The position numbers were made by a program, and so were the translations under genes. A DNA stretch of 22,044 nt from a virus, in the IMG/VR virus record IMGVR_UViG_3300030451_000219, positions 2,455 through 24,498 of that record; one strand, written 5' to 3'. This document shows positions 2,606-19,829 of the stretch, piece by piece (within the stretch, counting starts at the first letter, position 1; each line of letters begins with the position of its first letter). A model generated the notes under the pieces. The model saw only the letters and a list, made by a program, of their open reading frames with translations. It had not been told where the DNA came from and searched no databases.

Positions 2606-4696
2606 ATGGCAAAAAAGAAAAATAAAAAGAGAGATAAATATACTACTGCTGGTCGTGTAGACATGAGTAAAGGTGGTCGTGTGTCTAAACAAACAGGTGG
2701 TCTTCAAGATCAACAGGTAGGACAACCTCAACGTACTAATGATCGAGCAGAAATAATAAGAAGGAATCGTGAACGTAATCAACGTGAAGATTTAAATCGT
2801 GAAGATAGTTTTAATATGGACCCACCACGTTATGGACTTCCGGGTGGTAGTGGATATACACCTCCACCATCTTCACCACCTGAACCTACAGCTAGAGAAA
2901 AAAGAATAGAACAAACTGCTGAACAAGTTCAAGCTGCTGCACAAGGACAAGTTCCTCAAGCTGCTGTTATTCCGGAAGCTGTAAAAGTTCAAGAAGGTAT
3001 TCCTCAACAAGTTACAACTATGGCTGCACCTACACAGGTTACAGCTACACAAGCTGCACCGGTTGCACCTGAACAAGTTACAACTGTAACAGATGTTGCA
3101 CAGGTACAAACACCTGAACAGATTCAAGCTGCACAAATGGAAGCAGCGATGGTACAGCCTGATGCACAAGTAGAAGCTGCTACAGGAATGGTATCAGATG
3201 AATCATTAGCACAAGCTGCTGGTGTTGAAAGAGTAGCACCAATTGAAGCTGCTGATGTTGATATTCCTGAAGGAGCATTAACAGAAAGAGTTGTAGGCAC
3301 TCTTAGTGAAGGAGCTAAATCTACTGCTGCTGTAAACGCTGGTAGTTCATTAGCACGTATAACAAGAGCTAAAAAACAACTTGCAAATGCTGGATTAAGT
3401 GAAACAGATATATCAGAACTCGGAAACGATCCTGAAGCTTTAGAAGCTAGACTAGCTGATTTTAGTGAGTCTGAAAGAGGACTGATAGCTGGGTTACCAC
3501 AAGAAGCTTTAGTATCTAATCAGATTGATAGTTTGTTAAATGGTATTGAGAATGGTGAGATACCTGTATGGGCTAGACCTGCTGTTTCACAAGTTGAACA
3601 GATGTTAGCACAAAGAGGTATGTCAGCTTCAACTGTAGCTAGAGATTCATTAGTCAATACGATTATCCAAGCTGCAATGCCAATAGCTCAAAGCAATGCT
3701 CAAGCAATTCAGCAAAGTGTTTCACAGCAAAAAACTATTGAAGCTCAAGAAGCTGAAGCAAATGCTGCAAGAAGACAGCAAACAGCTTTAACAAATGCAC
3801 AGACTGTTTTTCAAATGGATATGGCTCAGTTTAATGCTGATCAACAAACAGCTTTATCTAACAGTAAGTTTTTACAGACGGTTGGTTTAACAGAAGCAAG
3901 TAACGAACAACAAGCTGTCGTTCAAGATGCACTATTAATGTCACAAGCTAATTTACAAGAAGCTGATTTTAATCAAAGAGCACAAATACAAAATGCTCAA
4001 GCATTCTTACAAATGGATATGCAAAATCTTAATAATCAACAACAAGCTAATGTATTAAAAGCTCAACAAAATCAACAACGTTTACTAAGTAATCAAGCTT
4101 CACAAAATGCTGCTGCTCAGTTTAACGCTGCAAGTCAGAACCAAACTAATCAGTTTATGGCTAATTTAAAAGTTCAAACAGATCAGTTTAATACATCTCA
4201 AATGAATGCAATGAGTCAGTTTAATGCTACACAAGCGAATGCTGCTGCTGCAAGAGATGCACAGAGAACAGCAGATTTAAATAAGTTTAATGCTCAGTTA
4301 GTTACACAGGTTGATCAGTTTAACAGTCAACAAGACTTTGCAAGGAATCAATGGAATGCACAAAACGCTGCTGCTGTTGAAGCTTCTAACGTACAGTGGA
4401 GAAGACAAGCAAACACAATTAATACTGCTGCACAGAACCAAATTAATATGCAGAATGCTATGAATGCATTTAATTTAAGTTCACAGTCTATGTCATTCTT
4501 ATGGCAAGAACTACGTGATCAAGCAGACTTTGATTTTAGAGCTGCTGAAAATGAAGAAAATAGAAAAGCTCAGATTATATCTACAGCGATTGCTAATGAA
4601 GGTAAAGCTGGTGAAAAATATGATGATTATCTTATGGGTCTATTAAGTTCTGTAGAATCATCTTATAGAGCAGGACTATTTGGAGGAAGAGGATAA
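2606..4696 (+). CDS. Gln/Ala-rich virion protein with 11-residue repeats
   Basis: A 696-residue protein. The N-terminus is strongly basic (MAKKKNKKRDKYTTAGRVDM) followed by SKGGRV. Residues about 95-225 are low-complexity, rich in Ala, Gln, Val and Pro, and probably extended or disordered. Residues about 300-370 hold a more ordered block (VWARPAVSQVEQMLAQRGMS and then IIQAAMPIAQ) that I recognise from a widespread marine phage protein family, usually annotated only as structural or hypothetical. Residues about 375-640 are Gln/Asn/Ala-rich helix with a clear 11-residue period (separate entry). The C-terminal 60 residues are acidic. It is the first gene after the promoter candidate and its stop overlaps the next ATG. 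Position among virion genes suggests an internal or tail-associated component; no enzymatic motif is seen. Confidence 0.65.
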   Translation: MAKKKNKKRDKYTTAGRVDMSKGGRVSKQTGGLQDQQVGQPQRTNDRAEIIRRNRERNQREDLNREDSFNMDPPRYGLPGGSGYTPPPSSPPEPTAREKRIEQTAEQVQAAAQGQVPQAAVIPEAVKVQEGIPQQVTTMAAPTQVTATQAAPVAPEQVTTVTDVAQVQTPEQIQAAQMEAAMVQPDAQVEAATGMVSDESLAQAAGVERVAPIEAADVDIPEGALTERVVGTLSEGAKSTAAVNAGSSLARITRAKKQLANAGLSETDISELGNDPEALEARLADFSESERGLIAGLPQEALVSNQIDSLLNGIENGEIPVWARPAVSQVEQMLAQRGMSASTVARDSLVNTIIQAAMPIAQSNAQAIQQSVSQQKTIEAQEAEANAARRQQTALTNAQTVFQMDMAQFNADQQTALSNSKFLQTVGLTEASNEQQAVVQDALLMSQANLQEADFNQRAQIQNAQAFLQMDMQNLNNQQQANVLKAQQNQQRLLSNQASQNAAAQFNAASQNQTNQFMANLKVQTDQFNTSQMNAMSQFNATQANAAAARDAQRTADLNKFNAQLVTQVDQFNSQQDFARNQWNAQNAAAVEASNVQWRRQANTINTAAQNQINMQNAMNAFNLSSQSMSFLWQELRDQADFDFRAAENEENRKAQIISTAIANEGKAGEKYDDYLMGLLSSVESSYRAGLFGGRG
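4112..4507 (+). repeat. Hendecad (11-residue) protein repeat, 12 units
   Basis: Residues 503-634 of the surrounding gene divide without gaps into twelve 11-residue units. The clearest units start at residues 503 (AAQFNAASQNQ), 514 (TNQFMANLKVQ), 525 (TDQFNTSQMNA), 536 (MSQFNATQANA), 558 (LNKFNAQLVTQ), 569 (VDQFNSQQDFA) and 580 (RNQWNAQNAAA). Position 3 is usually Gln, 4 aromatic, 5 Asn and 6 small. The pattern weakens in units 5 and 9-12. An isolated unit with the same core (MAQFNADQQTA) lies upstream near 3821. Eleven-residue periodicity fits a right-handed coiled coil or an amphipathic membrane-lying helix. Confidence 0.75.
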
Positions 4697-5703
4697 TGGG
4701 TAAACTTAGAAAGATTGGTAAAAGTATAAAGAAGAAAGTTAAAAAACTTTTTAGTTCAAAAATAGGTTCTATTGTTGGAAGTATTGCACTTAGTATGATA
4801 CTTGGTCCTGTTATAAGTAGAGCTTTTAATGGTGTAAAAACAGCACTAGGCTTTGGGCAACAAGCAACCACACAGGCAGTAAAAGAGGCAGCGACACAAC
4901 AAGTAACTGAAAAAGCAGTAACAAAAGGAATAGAGGGAAGTGTTTCAGATGTAGCTGGAGAAGAGCTAATAACAAAGAATATAGCTGAACAAGCTGCTGA
5001 AAAAGAATTAGGTAAAAGTATTACTTCTGAATCTTTAAAATCAGCCATAGATGCTGGAGCTACTAATCTAGACAAAGCTGCTAATTTTACCGAACAGTTT
5101 ACTCAAGGAACGTTACAAGGTGATATACCATTAATGGCTAATACATCTGTTACTGATACTTTAAATGATGTTAATAATTATATAGAAACAGGTCAAATGT
5201 TTAATCAAGAAATAACTCAAAGACAGCTACAAGGTGAAAATCTTAGATTTGCTGAAGATGTGTTTGCTTCAGATGAATTTGCTGGAGGTGGCTATGGATT
5301 AGATATGAGGGGTGCTAAAAGAGCACAGCCTTTATCTCAAAGAATTGAAGCAGGAGTTCCACTGAGCACAAAGATAACAAGTGGTAGAGTTGGTCAGTTG
5401 GCAATGGATGTTGGTAGAGATATAAAATCAGGATTTACTGATGGACAATTTGTTCCTGATGTTGCTAAAGGTGTTACAGGGTCTGTTATTACACAATCTA
5501 TAATGGGTGAACCTGAAGAACAGTTTTATAGTGCAGGTGCAATGCCACAACCACAAATGGAAGCTGCACAGGGAGCATATGTTGCAGAGGTACAAAATCA
5601 AATACCTAACATTCCAGCAACTAATTTCCAACAAATGAATCAAAGTTTATTTTATGGAACACTATCTCCACAATATTTAATGGGTCAAGCCCAATACACA
5701 TAG
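4696..5703 (+). CDS. Virion protein with cationic N-terminus and hydrophobic segment
   Basis: A 335-residue protein whose ATG overlaps the preceding stop, with a GGAGG ribosome site 13 bases upstream and GAGG closer in. Residues 3-17 are almost all Lys/Arg alternating with aliphatics (KLRKIGKSIKKKVKK), followed by a Gly/Ile/Leu-rich hydrophobic segment at about 23-41. The remainder (about 55-335) is Ala/Thr/Glu/Gln-rich, mostly helical, with no known motif. The cationic-amphipathic plus hydrophobic N-terminus looks like a membrane-interacting peptide, and similar starts are common in internal or tail-associated proteins of uncultured marine phages. A part in DNA ejection is plausible from position between other virion genes but is not shown. 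The N-terminus could alternatively bind packaged DNA. Confidence 0.6.
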   Translation: MGKLRKIGKSIKKKVKKLFSSKIGSIVGSIALSMILGPVISRAFNGVKTALGFGQQATTQAVKEAATQQVTEKAVTKGIEGSVSDVAGEELITKNIAEQAAEKELGKSITSESLKSAIDAGATNLDKAANFTEQFTQGTLQGDIPLMANTSVTDTLNDVNNYIETGQMFNQEITQRQLQGENLRFAEDVFASDEFAGGGYGLDMRGAKRAQPLSQRIEAGVPLSTKITSGRVGQLAMDVGRDIKSGFTDGQFVPDVAKGVTGSVITQSIMGEPEEQFYSAGAMPQPQMEAAQGAYVAEVQNQIPNIPATNFQQMNQSLFYGTLSPQYLMGQAQYT

Positions 5704-5712
5704 GAATTTATT

Positions 5713-6306
5713 ATGGCAGTATCAGAAAAAGCAATTCAGTTTTTAGGAGATAGTCTAGATAGAGGTAGACCAATACCCGGACAATCTCTGACAAATCCAC
5801 CTGAACAACCTTACAATTGGGAAAGTCCTACAGAGTTTACAAATCCACGTGAAGCAATGTTATATGTATTTGAAACTTTGACAATTCCTGAAACAGTTGA
5901 AAACACTTTACTATCTCTAAGTAACGGTGTAGGTGTTGTTGATATTGCATCTATTGTTTTATACTCAGGATTTTTAGAAGGTAAATGGAATCCTGATTTA
6001 ATGACTTTACTTATGGAGCCGACTATGTATATGATCATAGCACTAGCTGAAAAAGCTGAAGTAAAGTATGTATTAGAATCAGGAGATACTGAACAGGGTG
6101 ATGTTGTTGATAATGAAACACAATTACAAAATTTACAAAGTGGTATAAACGAATTAGATAGGATGAAACAAGCAGCTTCTAAACGTGTCAGCCCTCAGTC
6201 TGTACCGGAAGATGTAAGAGAAGTTATTGAGAAACAAGAAATAGAACCAAGTCTTTTAGAGAAAGTACAGCAGGGCGGTTCAAGTTTATTAAGTAAAGGG
6301 GAATAA
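5713..6306 (+). CDS. Conserved marine phage virion-cluster protein, function unknown
   Basis: A 197-residue protein with an AGGA ribosome site eight bases before the ATG. The region PIPGQSLTNPPEQPYNWESP at about residues 16-35, then FTNPREAMLYVFETL, GVVDIASIVLYSGFLEGKW and a hydrophobic block to about residue 120, is a pattern I recognise from many marine phage genomes, where it has no assigned function. The C-terminal third (about 130-197) is charged and helical. The central block is hydrophobic but broken by charged residues, so I do not call a transmembrane segment. It is nine bases after the previous virion gene and two bases before the next, within one transcription unit. Confidence 0.55.
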   Translation: MAVSEKAIQFLGDSLDRGRPIPGQSLTNPPEQPYNWESPTEFTNPREAMLYVFETLTIPETVENTLLSLSNGVGVVDIASIVLYSGFLEGKWNPDLMTLLMEPTMYMIIALAEKAEVKYVLESGDTEQGDVVDNETQLQNLQSGINELDRMKQAASKRVSPQSVPEDVREVIEKQEIEPSLLEKVQQGGSSLLSKGE

Positions 6307-6308
6307 GA

Positions 6309-7892
6309 ATGGCAGACGATACATTAAAAAGTTTATTATCAAAAGCAAATACTCCGGGTTCAACATTTGGTGAACTTGCTGGTATGTATATATCCGGTAA
6401 TAGAAAAAAAGATAATCGTGCAAGAAATATTTTATTAGCTTCATTATTCTTTAATGCTAAAGAAGCTTCAATGCAGTCTAAGGTAATGAGACAACTAGAA
6501 GATTTAGAACGTAATAAAGATTTACAAGTTGCAAAACTTAATAGTGAGTTTGACGAAAAGTTAAAACTACAAGCTACTCAAGATGAGATAGATTCAAAAG
6601 GAGTTTATGGTTATTATAAAGATAGTGCATTACAAGCTTTTGAAGATGCACATAAAGATAAGTTAGATTATTTTAATGTAGACTCAAAAGAAGCACGTAA
6701 AGCAAAAGCTTCTTGGATGGATAAATGGTCTAACGAGCAATATGCACTTCATCAGAAGCGTTATGCTCAAACTGATTCTAGTATTAAAACACTTGAACAA
6801 TTTAGTAAGCCTTACATGGATTATTATACTAATAAGAAAAGACAAATTTCTTCACCACAAAATGTCAGCCTTGTACATAATTTATTTAGTAAGATTGGTA
6901 TTGGTAAAGGTTATGAAAAAGAGTTAGAAAATAAATACACTCAATCCAAAATAGCTTTAGAAGATGATACATCAAGAAGACAACGTTTTGCATATGCTCC
7001 AACTGATAGGGCTATGATTGATGCTATACCTGAATCAAAAGCTAAAGCATTTGCTATAAGTCCTGAAGCATTTAATGAGAAGGCAGCAGCTTTTGGATTA
7101 CCTACAGATTTATATGGTTATGCATTTGACAAGTGGAGTGGAGGAAATAAATCAGAAGCTTCAGCAGAATCAATATTATTAGCGACAACTGCTCAGAGTG
7201 CAATCCTTTCAAGTAAAGAAGAGATTAAAAATATAAAAGCTAAATTTGAAATAATTAAACCTAAAGATACAAGCTCAATGTCTTATAAGGGATGGGAAAG
7301 ACAAAGAGAAAAAGCAGTACGAGATGCTGTTGGTATGACAGATGCTAAACAAGATTTAATTGATTTAGGAAATACTTATATTGATATAATGATTAGTACA
7401 GGTAATTTAACAGAAAAAGAAAGAGAAGAAAAACTTTCTAAATTTATTAAAACTAAAGTTGGAAAAGAATTAGGTGATATGGATATTGCAGCTTTACAAG
7501 AACAGATTGTAGAGGGAACATTAACACGTGCAATATTGAATGTTATGGATAATGATGTAGATGCTCTTAACGCAATTAAAACTATGCCACTAGATCAAAC
7601 TGCATTGAACAGATTAGAGCAGTCAAATTCTAATGCTTATAAATTATTAAAACAATATGATTTTGATGTTGTTAAAGCTACTCAGAATATAAAAGAAAGC
7701 GATCCACGTGTTCAAGCAATTAGAATTATGCAAGAAGGAGCTTACTATGAGTCAATCTCTGAAGCTGCTGTATTGAGTTCTAGTTATCTAGAAGATTTAT
7801 TACCAACAGGAGGGGGAGACCCTCTTGGATTAGGTAGAGACGAAAACCAAGAAGAAGAAGAAGCAACCGCCATTTCCGGTGGTGGCGTTTAA
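6309..7892 (+). CDS. Helical virion-cluster protein, function unknown
   Basis: A 527-residue protein with a GGGGA ribosome site a few bases before the ATG. It is Lys/Glu/Ala-rich and predicted by eye to be almost wholly alpha-helical; residues about 55-110 (RQLEDLERNKDLQVAKLNSE and following) look like a coiled coil. A short run of Gly followed by acidic residues (DENQEEEEATAISGGG) forms the C-terminal tail. No catalytic motif is visible. Its size and place between the smaller virion genes and two giant proteins match the spot that internal virion proteins occupy in T7-like genomes, so an ejected or internal core protein is a reasonable guess, but no homology supports it here. Confidence 0.5.
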   Translation: MADDTLKSLLSKANTPGSTFGELAGMYISGNRKKDNRARNILLASLFFNAKEASMQSKVMRQLEDLERNKDLQVAKLNSEFDEKLKLQATQDEIDSKGVYGYYKDSALQAFEDAHKDKLDYFNVDSKEARKAKASWMDKWSNEQYALHQKRYAQTDSSIKTLEQFSKPYMDYYTNKKRQISSPQNVSLVHNLFSKIGIGKGYEKELENKYTQSKIALEDDTSRRQRFAYAPTDRAMIDAIPESKAKAFAISPEAFNEKAAAFGLPTDLYGYAFDKWSGGNKSEASAESILLATTAQSAILSSKEEIKNIKAKFEIIKPKDTSSMSYKGWERQREKAVRDAVGMTDAKQDLIDLGNTYIDIMISTGNLTEKEREEKLSKFIKTKVGKELGDMDIAALQEQIVEGTLTRAILNVMDNDVDALNAIKTMPLDQTALNRLEQSNSNAYKLLKQYDFDVVKATQNIKESDPRVQAIRIMQEGAYYESISEAAVLSSSYLEDLLPTGGGDPLGLGRDENQEEEEATAISGGGV

Positions 7893-7904
7893 TAGAGGTA
7901 TCCT

Positions 7905-10900
7905 ATGCCTTCAAAATTTGAGTTGTATAAACAAACTCTTAATAGAGATTTAGATACCGATTATAATGAATTAAAAAGACTTTATAATCAGTATCCTGAA
8001 TATTATAAAAATTATGGGTTTGCTGAATTCGCAGCTATATCAACTGAAAATTCTGAAGAGCCTCTAGATGCAGAGATACAGTCTGTAATCAATGCTCCAA
8101 TCATTCCTGATAAAGCTAAAGACAATCCTGACTATTATAAAGAATTGTTTGATAAAGCTAGAGAAGAAGAAATACGTACAAGTGATAAACCTTTTCCTGA
8201 ATGGAGAAGAGTTTACACAAACATATTTGATGAACTTGCAACGGGTTCAGTACAATTCTTACGTGATGCTACAAAACTAACTACAGCAGGAAAGATAACT
8301 GGTCCATTTTTACCTAGTGATCAAGAAATACAAAATGGTGTTAACAAAGTTTTAAACAACGAGTTAACAGGAGATATTTACGATAAGATTATAGATGAAA
8401 AAGGTAACGTAACTTATCAACTTCAAGACCCTAAAACAACAGCAGGTTCAATCACTTCGACAATTGGATCAATTGCAGCAGCTATGTATGGAGGCAAAAA
8501 AGGAATTGTTCAACCTGCAAAGAATTTATATACCAAAATAAAAGGTGTACCTACTCCTAAAAGAGGTAGACCATCAAAAGCTGATATCAAAAAAAGAAAA
8601 CTTTTAAAGGGTGCTGAAACTTTAGGAACAGCAGAATTAGGGGCACAAATTATTTGGGCAGATGATCCTGAAGTTTTATTAGTGGGCAACTATTTAAGTA
8701 ACGCATTCGGTAACGATGATAATCTTGTTGCTGATTTATTTAAATACTTGGATGCTGATGAAGACAGTACAGCCTTGCAAAGACGATTAAGTTTATTATT
8801 AGATGGTATAGCATTTACAGGTGTTTTTGCAGCAGCAAAAGTTACCAAAGATGTTGTAATGAAAGCATTGAACAAGGTTAAGAAGGGAGGCGACCAGTCT
8901 GTTGTAAAATTTAAACAGTTAGTCAATTACAATAGAAAGCAACCAAAAGCTACTAAGACTTCTACTAAGAATACCAAAGAAATAAAAGAAAAAAGCATCA
9001 ATGATGTTGTATTGTTAAATGATAAGAAAGGTTTTGGTAATGGTATTATTAGAATTATGCAACAAGCAAGAGCTAACTTTTTTAGTACTACTGGATATTT
9101 TACACCTGAAATGCATAAGATTATTAAGGGTAATGAGTATGATAAACTTGCTTGGTCACGAAGAGCAGCTAATCTAACAAAAAATTTAAACTATCAAATT
9201 AAAAAGATATCACGAGAAAAGAATGTTTCTACTCAAGACTTAGATGAAGTTTTAAGATATTATTTAACAGGAACAAAAAGAAAGGGAAAGAAAGTTGATT
9301 TAAGAAGTATACATCCTGACCTAAGAGAGTTTGCGGTAGAGGCAAAAGAAACGGTAAAAGATTTAAGTGAGATGTTGTTAGAAACAAAAAATATCCCTGC
9401 TGATTTAAGAAGAAAGATAAATTCTAACTTGGGACAATATCTTAGAAAAACTTATGAGATATATGAAAACCCTAAATTTACACCTAGTCAAGAAGTTATT
9501 GAGACTGCAACAAGAGAGATTGCAAAAGTTCTAAGTAAGACTAAAGGATTTTTAAGATACAGTCCGCAGGAGTTACAGACAGAAGCTACCTCTATTGTAA
9601 ATAAAATATTAAGTAGAAAAGATAAGTCTGCATTTACAAGTTTTACTGATCACATGAATCAGATACTAGGAACTAAAACAGCAGGTAAGTTATTTGCTCC
9701 ACGTAAAAATATATCACCTGCAATCAATGCATTATTAGGCGGTGACAAAGTTGATACTACATCTTCAGTATTTAGAAGTATTGAAAATCTTGCTCACTAC
9801 ATTACTGATGCTCAAATGTTCGATGAATTGTATCACACAGGTAAAGGTAAGTGGTGGTTTACTCAGTCAGGTAAGTACGGTAAAGCACCGGATGCAAGAA
9901 TGAAAGCTGCTAAAGTTTCAGGTGAAAGATTTTTAAGTCTAAACAATAATGGAAAAGGATTCTATACAACTGAAGAAATAGCTAGGTTTTTTGAGGAGCT
10001 GGGTCAAATAAAAGAAAAAGGCTGGGTGGGTAAAGGTTATGCACACTTTTTAGCATATAAAGGATTTGGTCAAGCATCTGCTACTGTTTATAATTTAATA
10101 ACACATGTTAGAAATACGGTAGGTGGTGCTATTATTTTAGCTCAGAATGGAATGAATCCGTTTAGTAAGGAAACTGCTGAATCTTTTAACATGTTAAGAA
10201 ATGAATTATTTACTAAGACTAAAAATAAAGACAAAGCTTTACAAGATTTATACATTGACTATCAAAGATTAGGACTTGTTAATCAAAACGTAAGAGTTGG
10301 TGAATTTAAAAAGATGATTAATGAGTTAGCTGAAACAGGGATGTATGATGGTTACGTAGATAGTGCGTGGAGTAAGCTTGGTAGGGTTGGCAGAAGTATG
10401 AAACAGTTAAATAGAAAAGTTACTGATACTTATATTGCAGAAGATGATTTATGGAGAATTACTGGATATAATAAAGAGTTAAAAGTTTTAAAAGAGGCTA
10501 ATGACTTATTACCTATTAGTGAACGATTGACAGAAGACCAATTAAAAGAACAGGCTGCTACAATAATTAGAAACACTATGCCTACTTATGATTTAATACC
10601 AAAAGGATTTAGAGATGTAAGATATACACCAATAGGAAACTTCTTCTCATTTTCTGCTGAAAGATGGAGAAATAATTATCATACAATTAAACAATCAATA
10701 AGTGAGATTCGTTCCGGTAATGAAGTATTAGTTAAAAGAGGATATCAAAGATTGGCAAGTACTGTTGCTGTAGGTTATACAGGAGGTAAAGGTGTTTCAG
10801 AGTTTACCAAGTATGCCTTTGGTGTTACTGAGGAAGAAGAAAAAGCAGTAAAAGATTTAGCACTTCCTACATGGTCTAAAAATAGTCAGATTGCATATTC

Positions 10901-11933
10901 AAGAGACGAGAATGGTAATTTAATGTATATTGATTTGTCATATACCGATCCTAATGCACCTGTATTGGATACCATAAGAGCAGGATTAAATGTTTTACTA
11001 GACCCTAATACACCTGAAAAAGATATAGACAGAAGAATATTAGGTGCTACATATGCTTCATTAAACAAGGCTGCTGAACCTTTTATATCTCTTAACTTAT
11101 TATCTAAAGCAGTTTTAGATGTAACAAGAGGAGGTATAGATTCAGAAACAAATAGACCGATTCCCGGATACAATGAGTTAGAAGGTGCTTTTGATATTAA
11201 CAACATAGTTGCTATAACTAGACATTTGGGTCAGGTTATTATTCCTGCTGAAGCTAGATATTTATATAGTGTTGCTGCTGGAGAAAGAGGTAGAAAACTT
11301 CGTAAAGGCGAACTAGATGCTAATCTTGAAATTATGGCAAAACTAACTGGTCAAAGATTTTACAAGCTTGATAAAGAATCATTGGAAAAAAACTTTTATT
11401 TTAAAATGAAAGACTTTAATAATGCAAACGAAAAAGCTAATCGTTTATTATGGAGAAATATTGGTAAGGATAAATCTATAGATAAAGTTTTAAATGATTA
11501 CATTTATGCAAACCAATCCTACTTTGATGAATATGTTAATGCTAAACTAGCTGTAGAGGGTGCAAGAACTCTTGGTATAGATTCAGCCACTATCTTTAAC
11601 ACAATTAAAAGTCAGGCTAGATATCTAGATTCTGATGCTAAAAGTTCACTAGCTCAACAGTCTAATTATTTTGAACCTTTGAAATATACAGATTCAATGT
11701 TAAGAAGAATTTATAATGAGAATAAATTTACTGAAACTACTTATGATGATTTTAAAAAAGCATACGGTTTACTTTATACAAAAATGTCACAACTACCGTT
11801 GGTTCAATTTGATGAGCTAACAGAAGAACAAGAAGAAAATTATGAAATTATAGAAGGAGGAGCTGTGGATTGGATGTTAAGGTATCTAAAAGTAAAAAGT
11901 CCTCTAGGGAGTATTGTAGAAGAAAATGATTGA
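7905..11933 (+). CDS. Giant virion protein (1342 residues), possible internal/ejection protein
   Basis: A 1342-residue protein with a GAGG ribosome site upstream. The N-terminal 120 residues are acidic and Tyr-rich. Hydrophobic stretches lie near 179-195 (ITSTIGSIAAAMYGG) and 295-313 (LSLLLDGIAFTGVFAAAKV), separated by very basic linkers (PKRGRPSKADIKKRK at about 216-230). From about residue 590 to 1150 it matches, from memory, a family of very large marine phage proteins: HVRNTVGGAIILAQNGMNP near 735, a DDLWRITGYNKE-type block near 845, FFSFSAERWRNNYHTIKQ near 912 and WSKNSQIAYSRDENGNLMYI near 990. The function of that family is not established; a virion component injected with the DNA is the usual guess. 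It overlaps the next giant gene by eight bases, so the two are probably made in fixed ratio. No lytic transglycosylase motif was seen. Confidence 0.6.
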   Translation: MPSKFELYKQTLNRDLDTDYNELKRLYNQYPEYYKNYGFAEFAAISTENSEEPLDAEIQSVINAPIIPDKAKDNPDYYKELFDKAREEEIRTSDKPFPEWRRVYTNIFDELATGSVQFLRDATKLTTAGKITGPFLPSDQEIQNGVNKVLNNELTGDIYDKIIDEKGNVTYQLQDPKTTAGSITSTIGSIAAAMYGGKKGIVQPAKNLYTKIKGVPTPKRGRPSKADIKKRKLLKGAETLGTAELGAQIIWADDPEVLLVGNYLSNAFGNDDNLVADLFKYLDADEDSTALQRRLSLLLDGIAFTGVFAAAKVTKDVVMKALNKVKKGGDQSVVKFKQLVNYNRKQPKATKTSTKNTKEIKEKSINDVVLLNDKKGFGNGIIRIMQQARANFFSTTGYFTPEMHKIIKGNEYDKLAWSRRAANLTKNLNYQIKKISREKNVSTQDLDEVLRYYLTGTKRKGKKVDLRSIHPDLREFAVEAKETVKDLSEMLLETKNIPADLRRKINSNLGQYLRKTYEIYENPKFTPSQEVIETATREIAKVLSKTKGFLRYSPQELQTEATSIVNKILSRKDKSAFTSFTDHMNQILGTKTAGKLFAPRKNISPAINALLGGDKVDTTSSVFRSIENLAHYITDAQMFDELYHTGKGKWWFTQSGKYGKAPDARMKAAKVSGERFLSLNNNGKGFYTTEEIARFFEELGQIKEKGWVGKGYAHFLAYKGFGQASATVYNLITHVRNTVGGAIILAQNGMNPFSKETAESFNMLRNELFTKTKNKDKALQDLYIDYQRLGLVNQNVRVGEFKKMINELAETGMYDGYVDSAWSKLGRVGRSMKQLNRKVTDTYIAEDDLWRITGYNKELKVLKEANDLLPISERLTEDQLKEQAATIIRNTMPTYDLIPKGFRDVRYTPIGNFFSFSAERWRNNYHTIKQSISEIRSGNEVLVKRGYQRLASTVAVGYTGGKGVSEFTKYAFGVTEEEEKAVKDLALPTWSKNSQIAYSRDENGNLMYIDLSYTDPNAPVLDTIRAGLNVLLDPNTPEKDIDRRILGATYASLNKAAEPFISLNLLSKAVLDVTRGGIDSETNRPIPGYNELEGAFDINNIVAITRHLGQVIIPAEARYLYSVAAGERGRKLRKGELDANLEIMAKLTGQRFYKLDKESLEKNFYFKMKDFNNANEKANRLLWRNIGKDKSIDKVLNDYIYANQSYFDEYVNAKLAVEGARTLGIDSATIFNTIKSQARYLDSDAKSSLAQQSNYFEPLKYTDSMLRRIYNENKFTETTYDDFKKAYGLLYTKMSQLPLVQFDELTEEQEENYEIIEGGAVDWMLRYLKVKSPLGSIVEEND

Positions 11934-14900
11934 TTTTTCTAAAATATTTAAACAGGCTCCAAGTATAGACTTGAGAACAGGTGAATTGAAAGAAGCTAGA
12001 GATGATAGGAATGATCCTGCGTATCAAAAATTTATAAAAGATAATGAGCTTAATACTTATTTAACTAAGCCTACTCCTGCACAATTTGACTCACTTCAAA
12101 AAATGCAAGAGAGTAAACAGCGAATTGACCCTATAGTTTCTTTGGTAAAGCAAGGCGAACTTGAAAAAGCTTATGAAGCTTTTGAACAATTACCGTTTGG
12201 TGATCAAGCCAAAATAGCTATATCACCCGGAGTCGGTGATGCTTTAGCAGCTTACGAAGTTCCTTTGTTTGAAAAAAGAGCTATAGAAGATTTACGTACC
12301 GGTAATATAGCTTCAGCAAAACTTAATCACTTTATGGCAAGTCTATCTGCTGCTTCACTTATTCCTGCTGCTGATGCTATCACTCAGCCAATAAAAACAA
12401 CCATTAGAGGTGTACAAAAGTTAGGTAGAAATGTTCAAGCTAAAGTACCTATGGATAATACCGGAGGAGGTTCATCAGGAGGACCAACAAAAAAACTTAA
12501 TAAGCCTAAATACACAATTGATGATTATGGTTTTTATTCAGAAGCTCAAAACATTGCTTTTCAATTACCAAAAAATGCAACAGCAAGACAATTAGTAGAC
12601 GGTCTAAAGGCTAGGGTAGGTCCTAATAAACCGGTACAAAAAGCCGAACTAGACTTTTTAAATTTAGAAGAAGAGTTTGTAAAGCTTTATGATGAAGATA
12701 GAGTAATATCACGGGATGAGCTAGTAAGTTTTATAGAAGTACGTAAACCTAGTTTATCAATAAGTGTAAGGGGTGGTGAGGTTAGTGATGAGGTTCCTAC
12801 TATAAACATTGCTAGGGCAGATACTCCTGACAAAATAAATGTAGATGAAAATTTTCTTAGAGAAATTTTAAATAGCCAAGAATTTAAAGCGGATAGAGAT
12901 GCAAAAGAAAAAGTTGGTGAATATGTAGAACGTTTTAGAAGTAGTAGAACAACAGAAGAAAGAAATAAAGCTTATAATGAAATGAAAAAAGCACAAGACG
13001 AATATTCGGAAAATGAGTTTATAATGTTTAAAGATTTTATTGCAGACAAGGTTGATGAGTTAACAGACGGTAAACTAAAAATGAATTATCCACACAGGCT
13101 TATAGATGAAGTAGTTGATGAGGTTGATGAGAGGGTCAGCTATCTTGAAATGCCTGAAGGGTTTCCATCAGGATTTGAATATAATATTAATCTTCCTTTA
13201 AAAATTCATCGAAGAGATGCAGATATAACTTATGTAGACGGTCAAGGATTTCAAACAGAAGGTTATATTTTAGACAGAGGCTCAAGAGGGTTTTTAAGTT
13301 TTGTTGATGATAGAAATAATCTAGGTGATTTTAGGACATATGCTCGTGGAAGAGCTAATAACTTAGAGGAAGCGGATGTTCAACTATCAATTGCATTACG
13401 ACAAAGATTTACAGAAACAACCGATGCTGAAGACAGAACAACATTGTACGGTCCTAGTGATTTTAAGGCTTTTACTTCTCCAGGCTCTGAAAACTATAGA
13501 GAAAGTATTATTGAGATCGCAAATACAGGTATTAAAGATGCTAACATTCAAAACATGTTTACTAAATATCACCCATCTGAAAAAGGTCATTTTCCTGAAC
13601 CTTATCAGGTAGCACATAAGAGAACAACAGATAGAGTAGATATAGATGGTAACTTAAATAATCATTTAGAAGAAGTTCAATCTGATCCTACTAAAGCAAA
13701 ACGATCTTATGGTGCAATAACTGATGCATTTACTTTGGAGGATTATGTTAATTTACCTTTAAAAAATTTAGAGAAAGTAGATAGGTTAGAAAGTAGAACA
13801 GAATTAGTAGATGTAATGAGAGATTATTCTGATAAAAAGATAAAAGATTTTAACAAGGTTTACGAAGATATTCTAGAGCAAACATATGGAAGAGAACCTT
13901 TAGAAGCTTATAAGCGAGTTAATCAAAGATATGCTGAGAAAAATAAAATTGGTAAACTAAGCTTTCAAACAATGGCAAAGTATGTTAATGCGGATTGGAA
14001 AGAACATCGTGAATTATTTCAGGTAGCGAACCAAGATGATTTAGAGATTATACGGAATGCTTATCAAGTACCTGAAGCTATGTTCCAAGATAGTTATATA
14101 TCTGAGATAGATATGGTAGGTGAAATTTTTGAAGAATTTATTTCTCCTATTTTAGATTCTAATGAAATGACACCTATGTTACAAAGAAAGTTTGGTGGTA
14201 ATAAACAAAAAATAGAAGAGGAGCAGATAGGAGATATTTTTAAAAGACTTAAATTAGAAAATAAAGTAGAGCTTCCATCTAATATGTTAGATTTACTTAG
14301 GTCATATGAATCAAATTATGGTGGGGGAATGGGTGATGGTAGGGTTTTAAAAGCAGCTCCTGACTTTCCATTTTTAGATGACAGACAATGGACTAGATTA
14401 GTTTTAAGACAACACATTTTGGAAAGTGTAAAAGAAGGGCACGATGGTATCACTATACCAACGGGTTATTTTCAGAACATTAGAAATCTTAAAGTTCCAC
14501 ATGTAGAAATAAAAAAGGGTACTCCAAGAGAAGTATCTATTGCTTTTGGTGATGAACAAATTAATTCTAAAAGAAATACATATAAAGTTGAACTGCCTCA
14601 AGGTTTTATTGATGAAATAGATTATTATGATCATGTTTTTGGTAATGATTTTAATGATCCTTATAATTTTAATGATCGAATTGATCATTTTCATAGTCTA
14701 AATTCTCAGATGGGCGAAGATGAAAATATAAAAAATATTGTTTCTTTTATAAGTTTAAGACTTGGACCTGATAAAATGAGAAGTCCAAAACAAATGGAAA
14801 AATTACAGAAGCAAATTGAAAATCATAACTTTGATAAAGACCCCGTTATGATTGTTCCGTTACATGTTGTTTATAAATCAATCTACGATCAATTACTTAT

Positions 14901-15258
14901 AAAAGAAGCTCAACGTCTTGCAAGATTAACAGGTGCTAAGTTAGATGAAACTATGATTTATGTTGATCCAAGAATTAAAAATGCAGAAGCAAGAGGGCTA
15001 AATGTAAAAGAAATAGAGGATAAAAATTTTACAAAATATAATAAGCAGCCGGTTGTGAGACTGAAATTTAATGACAAATTAATTGAAACAATAACAGATC
15101 AAGGTATACAATATTTTTCTAAAGGCGGTTTGGTTACAGGACCGGATGTAGTTCCTTTCACTAAAGAAGACCCTGCTGAAAGAATTAATCCAATTACTGG
15201 TGAACCTTATATGGATAGATTTCAATTGAACTTAGGAGAATTAGATAATGGAATATAA
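11926..15258 (+). CDS. Giant polyvalent-type virion protein (1110 residues)
   Basis: A 1110-residue multidomain protein starting eight bases before the previous stop. After a helical N-terminus and a GGGSSGG linker (about 179-186), a block at about 200-280 (DYGFYSEAQNIAFQLPKNAT then a VQKAELDFL...ISRDELVSFI pattern) matches a small repeat seen in large polyvalent proteins of marine phages. Residues about 505-585 contain YGPSDFKAF, ENYRES and HLEEVQSD, and about 815-845 contains QWTRLVLRQHILESVKEGHD; in the same polyvalent proteins these blocks occur in this order. The C-terminal tail has FSKGGLVTGPDVVPFTKEDP and NPITGEPY, also seen on such proteins. Polyvalent proteins are thought to be delivered into the host with DNA, but no activity can be assigned here. 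It overlaps the endolysin gene by 11 bases. Confidence 0.6.
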   Translation: MIDFSKIFKQAPSIDLRTGELKEARDDRNDPAYQKFIKDNELNTYLTKPTPAQFDSLQKMQESKQRIDPIVSLVKQGELEKAYEAFEQLPFGDQAKIAISPGVGDALAAYEVPLFEKRAIEDLRTGNIASAKLNHFMASLSAASLIPAADAITQPIKTTIRGVQKLGRNVQAKVPMDNTGGGSSGGPTKKLNKPKYTIDDYGFYSEAQNIAFQLPKNATARQLVDGLKARVGPNKPVQKAELDFLNLEEEFVKLYDEDRVISRDELVSFIEVRKPSLSISVRGGEVSDEVPTINIARADTPDKINVDENFLREILNSQEFKADRDAKEKVGEYVERFRSSRTTEERNKAYNEMKKAQDEYSENEFIMFKDFIADKVDELTDGKLKMNYPHRLIDEVVDEVDERVSYLEMPEGFPSGFEYNINLPLKIHRRDADITYVDGQGFQTEGYILDRGSRGFLSFVDDRNNLGDFRTYARGRANNLEEADVQLSIALRQRFTETTDAEDRTTLYGPSDFKAFTSPGSENYRESIIEIANTGIKDANIQNMFTKYHPSEKGHFPEPYQVAHKRTTDRVDIDGNLNNHLEEVQSDPTKAKRSYGAITDAFTLEDYVNLPLKNLEKVDRLESRTELVDVMRDYSDKKIKDFNKVYEDILEQTYGREPLEAYKRVNQRYAEKNKIGKLSFQTMAKYVNADWKEHRELFQVANQDDLEIIRNAYQVPEAMFQDSYISEIDMVGEIFEEFISPILDSNEMTPMLQRKFGGNKQKIEEEQIGDIFKRLKLENKVELPSNMLDLLRSYESNYGGGMGDGRVLKAAPDFPFLDDRQWTRLVLRQHILESVKEGHDGITIPTGYFQNIRNLKVPHVEIKKGTPREVSIAFGDEQINSKRNTYKVELPQGFIDEIDYYDHVFGNDFNDPYNFNDRIDHFHSLNSQMGEDENIKNIVSFISLRLGPDKMRSPKQMEKLQKQIENHNFDKDPVMIVPLHVVYKSIYDQLLIKEAQRLARLTGAKLDETMIYVDPRIKNAEARGLNVKEIEDKNFTKYNKQPVVRLKFNDKLIETITDQGIQYFSKGGLVTGPDVVPFTKEDPAERINPITGEPYMDRFQLNLGELDNGI

Positions 15259-16398: not shown

Positions 16399-16833
16399 AT
16401 GACAAGCAAAAATATATTAGACTTAAATAATCGTCTATATCAAACCTCGTATGTAGGCTTCGATAGACTCTTCGATGAGTTTTTCAGACTACAATCAAGT
16501 ACGAAAAATGTACCAAACTACCCACCTTATAATCTGATTAAGGATGGAGATAGTTATACAATAGAAATGGCTATGGCAGGACTGACTGACAAAGACGTTG
16601 ATGTTGTTCTTGAGGATAGGACTTTATCTATCACTTATGAGAAATCAGAAGAAGATATTGATGAAGGTGTTATCCATAAAGGATTAGCACAAAGGTCTTT
16701 TAAAAGAAGTTTTAATCTAGCTGATGATATTGAAGTCCAAAAGGCTCAACTCAAAAATGGATTACTATCTATCCGTATGGAAAGAATAGTTCCTGATGAG
16801 AAGAAACCTCAGAAGATTAAACTATCTAAGTAA
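16399..16833 (+). CDS. hsp20: Small heat shock protein, Hsp20/IbpA type
   Basis: A 144-residue ATP-independent chaperone expected to hold unfolded proteins in a refoldable state in the cytoplasm. Residues 41-131 form the alpha-crystallin domain: it begins YPPYNLIKDGDSYTIEMAMA as in IbpA-type proteins, continues DVDVVLEDRTLSITYEK, and ends with the diagnostic KNGLLSIRMER strand at 119-128. The C-terminal IKL at 140-142 matches the short I-x-I/L motif that docks neighbouring subunits. The N-terminal arm (FDRLFDEFFRLQSS, about 21-34) is the usual aromatic amphipathic helix. Hsp20 genes are common in marine cyanophages and pelagiphages, possibly to help virion folding or protect host proteins late in infection. 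Here it is the last gene of the late block, with its own AGGAG site. Confidence 0.9.
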   Translation: MTSKNILDLNNRLYQTSYVGFDRLFDEFFRLQSSTKNVPNYPPYNLIKDGDSYTIEMAMAGLTDKDVDVVLEDRTLSITYEKSEEDIDEGVIHKGLAQRSFKRSFNLADDIEVQKAQLKNGLLSIRMERIVPDEKKPQKIKLSK

Positions 16834-16865: not shown

Positions 16866-17080
16866 TTGAGTGCATTTAGTTCTCGTTGTAGGTATCCGTG
16901 TAAGTCACCCATCTTAGACTTACCATGTCGTAACACGGTCTTGATCAAATCTCTTTCCTCAATTGGAAAGATGTTATCAACTTCATTCTCAGGTAACATA
17001 CTAAATTCTGTGACAATTTTGTTATCCCTTGTCAATAGGATTTTGAAGCTTACCAAGTTTGCTTCTTTACTTTTGCTCAT
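16856..17080 (-). CDS. Small protein after nrdB, function unknown
   Basis: A 74-residue protein, last gene of the leftward operon. The ATG at 17080 follows an excellent GGAGGAG ribosome site and overlaps the end of nrdB by 14 bases. It has a basic start (MSKSKEANLVSFKILLTRDN), a central acidic stretch (PENEVDNIFPIEERDLIK) and a charged helical end (HGYLQRELNALKYG). No Cys pair is present, so it is not a glutaredoxin or thioredoxin, which often accompany ribonucleotide reductase. I do not recognise the family. Strong translation signal and tight overlap support a real gene. Confidence 0.6.
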   Translation of the reverse strand: MSKSKEANLVSFKILLTRDNKIVTEFSMLPENEVDNIFPIEERDLIKTVLRHGKSKMGDLHGYLQRELNALKYG

Positions 17081-18056
17081 CGTTCTCCTCCAGCGATGTA
17101 AAGGTTATGCTGTCCTGTCTACCACGTAGTCCAGCTTTCATGTAAGATGTAGCACGACCTTCAAAGAAGTTCTGATGCTCAACACCCATGACTTCATCTA
17201 ACCATTCAAGAGGATTCTCTCTTTGATCATAGTTAGTTTTTAAACCTAGCTGTAGTAATCTTCTATCAGCTATGTATCTATTGTAAGCGTACATATCTTT
17301 CTTGGTAAGTCCTTGTATATCGCCCATCTCAAATACCAAGTCTAAAAACTTATCTTCAAGTTTGACCATCTCTCTACATATCTCGTAGATTTCTTTCTTA
17401 AAATCATCTGTCCATATCTCAATGTTCTCTTGAATAAACTGTCTAAATAGTTTAGTCATTGCTTCAACGTGCATAGATTCATCACGGATAGAGTAAGTAA
17501 CAATCTGTCCCATACCTTTCATGCGACCAAAGCGTGGGAAGTTTAACAAGATTGCAAAACTACTAAAGAGTTGTAGTCCTTCGGTAAAAGCTGAATAGAC
17601 TGCTAAAGTTTTTGCAATACTTTTCTTATCCTTCATTGTGGTTTTGATATCACTAATGTATTCATGTTTATCTGCCATCTCTTCGTACTCAGCAAAAGCT
17701 TTGTACTCTATCTCAGGCATACCAACAGTATCAAGCAATAAACTGTAAGCGTGTTGATGGATAGATTCCATGTTAGCAAATGAAGCCATCATCATTCTAG
17801 CTTCAGGCTTTTTAAATATTCTCATGTATCTATCTATGTAACCTGAACCCACGTCAACATCTGATTGAGTAAACAATCTAAAGATTTGTGTTAGTAGATT
17901 TTTTTCAGTATCAGATAGCTCTTGCCAATCTTTAACATCTGTATGTAGAGGTACAGACTCCGGCATCCAATGCATTTGATTTTGTAATACATAGTAGTCA
18001 AACATCCATGCATCATCAAACGGTTTGTAATATTCTCTTGTTCCTAATAAACTCAT
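17067..18056 (-). CDS. nrdB: Class I ribonucleotide reductase, small (radical) subunit
   Basis: A 329-residue NrdB that makes and stores the radical needed for NrdA to turn ribonucleotides into deoxyribonucleotides. All metal ligands are visible, with E. coli NrdB equivalents in brackets: Asp66 (D84), Glu97 and His100 in the ESIHQHAY motif (E115, H118), Glu159 (E204), and Glu193 and His196 in RDESMH (E238, H241). Tyr104 takes the place of the radical Tyr122. Ligand spacings agree with E. coli (31 and 34 residues). The tail after FFEGRATSYMKAG lacks a further Tyr, so Tyr305 is the only candidate for the Y356 relay residue; the last 20 residues are polar and acidic. It starts nine bases after the nrdA stop with an AGGAA ribosome site, so both subunits are co-expressed. 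Confidence 0.95.
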   Translation of the reverse strand: MSLLGTREYYKPFDDAWMFDYYVLQNQMHWMPESVPLHTDVKDWQELSDTEKNLLTQIFRLFTQSDVDVGSGYIDRYMRIFKKPEARMMMASFANMESIHQHAYSLLLDTVGMPEIEYKAFAEYEEMADKHEYISDIKTTMKDKKSIAKTLAVYSAFTEGLQLFSSFAILLNFPRFGRMKGMGQIVTYSIRDESMHVEAMTKLFRQFIQENIEIWTDDFKKEIYEICREMVKLEDKFLDLVFEMGDIQGLTKKDMYAYNRYIADRRLLQLGLKTNYDQRENPLEWLDEVMGVEHQNFFEGRATSYMKAGLRGRQDSITFTSLEENDEQK

Positions 18057-18065
18057 AATTATTTC

Positions 18066-19829
18066 CTAGCCCTCACAGGCGATACATTCCACATCATCAA
18101 GTTTGATACGTGGTATTTTTACATTGACATTCTCTGCGTTCCTTGCAGCATTAGACCTCAAGTAATACAATGATTTAAGTCTGTTAGCACCATACCAATG
18201 TACATCATTGACATACTGCATATACTCATCATGCACTTCTTGTGGCTCTGTAGCTTTAGGAAGTACAAAGAACAAGTTGACAGATTGTGATTGACATATA
18301 AACTCTTGACGTTTGTATGCATGTTCAACAACCCATATTTGATTTATCTCATTAGCTGTTTTAAATACATCCTTTTCTAATGTAGTTAAAATATCTAAGT
18401 GTTGTACAGAACCATCGTGTCCTGCAATATCTTTCCAAAGACTTTCAAGTTCTTTACCCTTGATACCTTTAGACTTGAGAAGCTTTTCTAAGTATTTGTT
18501 TTTTACTTGGTAGCTTCCGGAGAGAGTCTTGTGCGTATAAACGTTAGCACGATACGGTTCAATAGAAGGAGATGTGCCACCACAAATGATACTAGAAGAA
18601 GCGTTAGGAGCAACAGCCAAAAGATGAGCATTACGCATGTTGTTTTGCTGAAGGTACGCATGGAAGCCCATTGCTCCGAGACCCAACGACCTTTCTCTGT
18701 AAGCAGAGTAGGCAGCTCTAGTAAAGCCTTCTTTACCTTCTTTAATATACTTTTTAAAACGTTTAAAGTTTGCATTATATTCTCCAAGTTGTGTAGTGTC
18801 GATAGCGTTATCAATAAAATGTTGAATAACATTATCGAGCATCGTTATTAAATCATCTATAAACTGTTCGTTCTTTGACCACTTGTCAAAGTATTGTAAA
18901 TTAACAGAAGATAAACAACACACTGCTGTCCTCTCTTCATTCGTTGGTAAAGTTATCTCAGAACATAAATTACTTTGTTTGATTTCTAGTCCTAAGTCTT
19001 TTTGTTTTTGTGGTAAAGCAGCATTACAATTATCTATGTTGACAATGTAAGGCTCACCGGTTTCTGCTCTAGCATTAATTAGTTGCCACCATAAATCTCT
19101 AGCGTTGACAACCTTTACAGCTTCGTTAGATTTGGGATCAACCAATCTAAACTCTGCATCTTCTTCTACAGCTTTTAAAAATTCTTTGGTAACATTGACA
19201 GCGTTGTGAAGATTTAAACATTTACGATTGATATCTCCACCGGATTCTTTTCTCATGTTGATAAACTCTTCGATCTCAGGATGAGAAATATCCATGTAAG
19301 CTGCATAGCTACCTCGTCTTGTTACACCTTGATTGAAGGCTAACATCTGAGAATCTACGACATGCATAAAGGGGATTGAACCAGTAGACTTACTACCGTG
19401 AGTAGTAGATACACCGTTAGACCTAACGTCTCCCCAATATCCACCAATACCTCCACCTGAACTTGCCAACCATATGTTCTCATCATAATGAGCTGATAAA
19501 CCGATACGACTGTCAGGAACATAATTAAGGAAGCAGCTAATAGGAAGCCCACGACTTGTTCCCCCGTTACTAAGTATAGGAGTGCTAAACATGAACCAAC
19601 ACTTGGAACTGTATTCATAAAGTCGTTGAGCAAGTTCAAAATCTGTATGACCTTTGTAGGTTGCTCCGAAGACTGAGGCTCTTGCGAATGCTTCTTGGGC
19701 ATGGGTTTCTTCTCCTGTAAAATATCTATCCTTCAATGTATCAAGACTAAACTTATCTAGTCTTTTTTCGTTATCATAATTAATCTTTATTCCTAAGTAT
19801 TCCTTTGGTCCTACTTTGTCTTCAACCAT
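18066..19829 (-). CDS. nrdA: Class I ribonucleotide reductase, large (catalytic) subunit, shortened
   Basis: A 587-residue NrdA that reduces ribonucleoside diphosphates to supply dNTPs for phage replication. Active-site parts are present, E. coli numbering in brackets: Cys99 in ISCFL (C225), Asn287, Cys289 and Glu291 in SNLCSEI (N437, C439, E441), Cys304/305 in CCLSSVNL (C462), the PNASSS phosphate loop at 408-413, the Tyr555-Tyr556 relay in SLYYLRS (Y730/Y731) and the C-terminal CIAC pair (582, 585). The usual N-terminal ATP-cone is absent, so dATP feedback is probably lost. Between GFHAYLQQ (about 395) and RNAHLLAVAPN (399) the roughly 40-50 residues normally found there are missing, without a frameshift. 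The ATG shares one base with the upstream stop. Other class I features make the assignment firm; activity of this short form is uncertain. Confidence 0.93.
   Translation of the reverse strand: MVEDKVGPKEYLGIKINYDNEKRLDKFSLDTLKDRYFTGEETHAQEAFARASVFGATYKGHTDFELAQRLYEYSSKCWFMFSTPILSNGGTSRGLPISCFLNYVPDSRIGLSAHYDENIWLASSGGGIGGYWGDVRSNGVSTTHGSKSTGSIPFMHVVDSQMLAFNQGVTRRGSYAAYMDISHPEIEEFINMRKESGGDINRKCLNLHNAVNVTKEFLKAVEEDAEFRLVDPKSNEAVKVVNARDLWWQLINARAETGEPYIVNIDNCNAALPQKQKDLGLEIKQSNLCSEITLPTNEERTAVCCLSSVNLQYFDKWSKNEQFIDDLITMLDNVIQHFIDNAIDTTQLGEYNANFKRFKKYIKEGKEGFTRAAYSAYRERSLGLGAMGFHAYLQQNNMRNAHLLAVAPNASSSIICGGTSPSIEPYRANVYTHKTLSGSYQVKNKYLEKLLKSKGIKGKELESLWKDIAGHDGSVQHLDILTTLEKDVFKTANEINQIWVVEHAYKRQEFICQSQSVNLFFVLPKATEPQEVHDEYMQYVNDVHWYGANRLKSLYYLRSNAARNAENVNVKIPRIKLDDVECIACEG

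Follow-up and report, generated by a model that had tools for sequence, protein, structure and literature searches.

The window, a 22,044-nucleotide stretch of viral DNA, carries a gene for the alpha subunit of a class I ribonucleotide reductase (RNR), nrdA, from which 44 internal codons are missing in frame, a deletion that recurs in none of the other sequences searched. The most likely conclusion is that an ordinary nrdA was recently broken, or was shortened by a laboratory artefact, rather than that the enzyme is a natural miniature. The original prediction had left three readings of the short protein side by side, namely a natural minimised RNR, a recent deletion and an assembly artefact; the first is contradicted by the gene's relatives, while the other two both survive.

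A 132-bp gap in nrdA

The nrdA reading frame is open throughout, with neither stop codon nor frameshift, and its product contains the all-alpha and barrel domains of RNR (Pfam PF00317 and PF02867). The finger-loop cysteine C289, the active-site pair C99/C304, the tyrosine dyad Y555-Y556, the C-terminal CxxC motif (C582/C585) and the APNASS loop are all conserved with relatives, and both flanks of the junction match those of the relatives, in agreement with the earlier claims that the frame is unbroken, the flanks are intact and the catalytic cysteines are all retained. The gene is present once in the 24.5-kb virus record.

The two closest relatives are the IMG/VR contigs 3300025151_003542 (L001) and 3300019722_000018 (L002), which carry the same nrdA and neighbours and reach 92% and 91% identity to the window in their best segment. 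Outside the gap their NrdA proteins are 99% and 98% identical to that of the window at the amino acid level, but they count 631 residues rather than 587, with the 44-residue segment present. Where the window NrdA joins GFHAYLQQNN in frame straight to MRNAHLLAVAPNA, the L001 protein reads GFHAYLQQNN-IPFEGIFASGFNHKVFQHIKVRATEASSRLAEERGEAPDIGGSG-MRNAHLLAVAPNA, and exactly 132 bp, corresponding to L001 residues 398-441, are thus absent from the window. The shortfall, predicted from the window sequence to be 40-50 residues in frame, is therefore fixed at exactly 44 codons, at the place expected (Table 1). Upstream of the junction, the DNA of L001 and L002 is 98-99% identical to the window across 1.46 kb (98.9% over 1459 bp for L001), and downstream of it the DNA of both relatives is identical to the window for at least 160 bp. 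In the window protein the strand/helix LGLGAMGFHAYLQQNN ends at residue 397, and the APNASS loop, the presumed phosphate-binding loop of class I RNRs, starts about 10 residues past the junction.

Table 1. Features of the nrdA-nrdB locus, in window coordinates
Feature	Positions	Strand	Size or content	Basis
nrdA, class I RNR alpha subunit lacking 44 internal codons	18066..19829	(-)	587 aa	
Upstream flank of the junction	18639..18968	(-)	Finger loop Cys289 (18963-18965) to strand/helix LGLGAMGFHAYLQQNN	Sequence, conserved columns
Deletion junction	18637..18638	(-)	132 bp missing; 2-bp 'AT' common to both ends; against L001, upstream identity stops at 18637 and downstream identity starts at 18638	BLAST blocks, exact mapping, alignment
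Downstream flank, presumed phosphate-binding loop APNASS	18594..18611	(-)	Residues 407-412	Sequence, conserved in relatives
nrdB, class I RNR beta subunit, intact	17067..18056	(-)	329 aa	Pfam PF00268

BLAST alignments of eight contigs split into two blocks at this site: L001, L002 and six more (L157, L158, L159, L160, L161 and L162), the latter carrying the intact haplotype or near variants of it, and all eight break at the same point. By their names, the closest intact contigs (L001, L002, L157 and L160) come from four different IMG data sets. The spacing at the site is 49 residues in 87 distinct related sequences and 52 in one, as against 5 in the window, a disparity that is not due to chance. 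Apart from the 132-bp gap and the nrdA-nrdB cassette described below, the alignment with L001 is free of indels over about 4.8 kb, which indicates that the contig is otherwise clean.

Several routes to such a gap were considered and rejected. There is no long direct repeat at the gap ends and the 2-bp overlap is an ordinary one, which disposes of a repeat-driven deletion; the folding of either strand is likewise ordinary (z of -0.05 and -0.46), which disposes of a hairpin-driven one. Removal of an intron or intein remnant was rejected as well, because what is missing is conserved NrdA sequence of the ordinary kind.

Distribution and constraint of the missing segment

Of the 80 best IMG/VR relatives whose sequence was read through the site, all 80 keep the segment, and a scan of genome contigs yielded six relatives, with the segment present in all five that reach the site. 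Close relatives that retain the extra stretch are one half of what the original prediction named as counting against it. Exact and degenerate searches for the shortened junction retrieved no second contig from IMG/VR, the degenerate pattern being validated by its recovery of the window itself. The shortening is therefore not lineage-wide, and a deletion common to a phage lineage was rejected on the combined evidence of the two scans and the 80 relatives. When the 60-residue shortened junction was used as a tblastn query against phages, the pelagiphage isolates were found to span 312 nucleotides, that is, exactly 44 extra residues. Tblastn matches in Vibrio phage RYC and Acinetobacter seemed to lack the segment; reading of the proteins showed it to be present, the N-terminal alignment being spurious.

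Solved class I and class II RNRs likewise align through the segment, and among the class I, class II and clade O RNRs examined none is without it. The solved chains closest to the window NrdA, the alpha subunits of PDB entries 6dqw and 6dqx, are similar to it in length and, unlike it, hold the segment at full length; we take both to be class Id RNRs. PMC9531940 cites Rose et al. 2019 for class Id as the "minimal architecture" class. A genuinely minimised marine-phage enzyme is provided by the clade O RNR of Synechococcus phage S-CBP4 (PDB 7URG, PMC9531940), which has a tyrosine dyad and a ferritin-like partner. It is the smallest RNR known, with 433 codons as annotated, and it is shortened elsewhere while keeping 47 residues at this site. 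Clade O enzymes have an alpha subunit of about 412 residues and a ferritin-like partner of about 240, and are more similar to class II (PMC9531940), whereas the alpha and beta subunits encoded in the window (587 and 329 residues) are both nearest to class I families and fall outside clade O.

The RNR core is a ten-stranded barrel in which eight helices join the parallel strands (PMC9531940). The order of the motifs puts the lost stretch after the strand around LGLGAMG and before the strand LLAVAP, the latter running into the phosphate loop, and the barrel of the window protein is by sequence incomplete, with 44 residues absent between two consecutive strands. In a low-confidence AlphaFold model of the intact protein, positions 407-430 form a helix of about 24 residues; it falls within the missing segment, which may thus include the crossover helix between these two strands. 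Mean pLDDT was 55.5 for the short protein and 58.3 for the intact one, both of low confidence; the input alignment was too uniform, and neither model carries weight on the question of folding. In a set of 36 sequences 13 of the 44 segment positions are invariant, and across the 80 relatives pN/pS is 0.29 in the segment as compared to 0.15 and 0.21 in the flanks. By these measures the segment is somewhat less constrained than its flanks yet clearly under purifying selection, and we infer that its loss should break the barrel.

Origin of the shortened gene

Outside the gap, the window NrdA differs from that of L001 at 6 residues with a dN/dS of 0.089, similar to the 0.076 found between L001 and L002 and a sign of normal purifying selection. 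Together with an NrdB that is 100% identical in amino acid sequence to its L001 counterpart, these values indicate that no decay has followed the loss; purifying selection outside the gap, the intact catalytic residues and the intact nrdB in turn imply that the gene was shortened very recently or only in the library. A short patch of nrdA downstream of the junction, at 18354-18414 (around residues 483-488, TTLEKDV), is set apart from the two close relatives, with 47/60 and 51/60 positions identical, and its position inside otherwise near-identical DNA suggests a small recombination tract.

The best explanation, to which we assign an even chance, is a real allele, null or nearly null, that stems from a recent deletion of 132 bp in the phage. 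The starting gene would have been an ordinary class I nrdA of an HTVC115P-like marine phage, from which a single recent event of illegitimate joining at a 2-bp repeat would have removed 132 bp and, with them, the crossover helix that joins two adjacent strands of the ten-stranded catalytic barrel. On this reading the event would have taken place in the phage rather than in the library, and the barrel would presumably be unable to close properly, leaving a subunit with no or almost no activity; the contig would in that case stand for either a defective genome or a phage variant relying on the RNR of its host. In laboratory hosts phages can often do without RNR genes of their own, T4 being an example. 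A 2-bp overlap is far too short to mislead a k-mer assembler, so a molecule with the junction probably existed, and since the junction ends share only these 2 bp, a mis-join by an overlap-based assembler is unlikely too. Counted against a real deletion are the single sighting of the junction, in one contig; the in-frame outcome, a 1 in 3 chance; and the unremarkable overlap, as 21% of 132-bp deletions placed at random in this gene share 2 bp or more. Moreover, conserved residues are lost here from a gene under purifying selection, and a common natural allele would therefore be unexpected.

It is also quite conceivable, at somewhat less than an even chance, that a chimeric molecule from library amplification, or a low-coverage local misassembly, dropped the 132 bp and that the phage gene itself is intact; the two readings, a true null allele and a library chimera, are nearly equal in likelihood. 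An artefact would account for a short junction private to one contig, flanks 98-99% identical to intact relatives, nrdA and nrdB genes free of decay or relaxed selection, and a gap in a conserved part of the protein whose product is unlikely to work. However, the 2-bp repeat is too short for assembly collapse, the rest of the overlap with L001 is free of suspicious indels, and an artefact too would be expected to preserve the frame only one time in three. Short direct joins are, in addition, rare even among chimeras produced by multiple displacement amplification (MDA), where segments lying within 10 kb of each other were joined directly in only 11 of 475 cases (PMC1855051).

Were the deletion real, the subunit might instead be weak, partly active or dominant-negative, with the short helix FHAYLQQNN alone making the crossover to the next strand. 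The in-frame nature of the loss and the retention of both flanks and all catalytic residues fit such a subunit, but we hold it to be improbable given that the segment is never absent in the class I, class II and clade O RNRs examined. Less probable still is the reading entertained in the original prediction, a minimised RNR of natural origin that works fully despite its shortened barrel: the open frame and conserved catalytic residues speak for it, and nothing else does, whereas relatives with 99% amino acid identity outside the gap keep the segment, as does the smallest known RNR, and the segment is under purifying selection in the relatives, 13 of its positions being invariant. That a class I RNR should function without the crossover helix kept by all other RNRs examined, FHAYLQQNN alone linking the strands, therefore strikes us as very unlikely.

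The finding is of little weight unless the shortened protein works, in which case the minimal RNR barrel would be redefined. Profile-based annotation would nonetheless pass such a gene: the window NrdA scores 681 bits against NCBIfam model NF006577, above the curated cut-off of 620 (758 for the intact L001 protein). In-frame losses in metagenome-assembled phage genes should therefore be checked against reads before a gene is called minimised.

Gene neighbourhood and the nrdA-nrdB slot

The gene for the class I beta subunit adjoins nrdA, and the solved chain nearest to its product is 9dws. Upstream of nrdA are two small genes, genes for a Cas4-type exonuclease and for a PD-(D/E)XK endonuclease, and the end of a DNA polymerase I gene. 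Pelagibacter phage HTVC115P has a similar neighbourhood, with a DNA polymerase, a gene in the exonuclease position, an endonuclease, two small genes, nrdA and nrdB, and with Hsp20 nearby, making an HTVC115P-like (pelagiphage-like) marine phage the most likely source of the window. The HTVC115P NrdA (QGZ18267.1) is 64% identical in amino acid sequence to that of the window and, unlike it, has the segment intact (PFEGPIATGQNLKMFRQIKELANKTSMELAEERGEAPDMEGTGM). The window has its own gene for an Hsp20 small heat-shock protein near the RNR genes, at 16399-16833. Further away, at 2606-15258 on the (+) strand, are six large open reading frames of 696, 335, 197, 527, 1342 and 1110 residues without a PHROG match; the 1110-residue frame has no relative among the IMG/VR pattern matches, whereas the neighbouring replication genes have many close ones.

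A further difference of L001 and L002 from the window is a small additional gene that separates nrdA from nrdB. Across this phage group the nrdA-nrdB gap serves as a slot for variable cassettes, which in a rough motif-based survey ranges from a short overlap to about 1.1 kb. The slot is empty in the window (18057-18065). In L001 it holds a 54-residue zinc-ribbon-like frame (2243-2407), and in L002 (2180-2758) and a further contig, L100 (9393-9992), a frame of about 192 residues that by eye resembles a 2OG-Fe(II) oxygenase.
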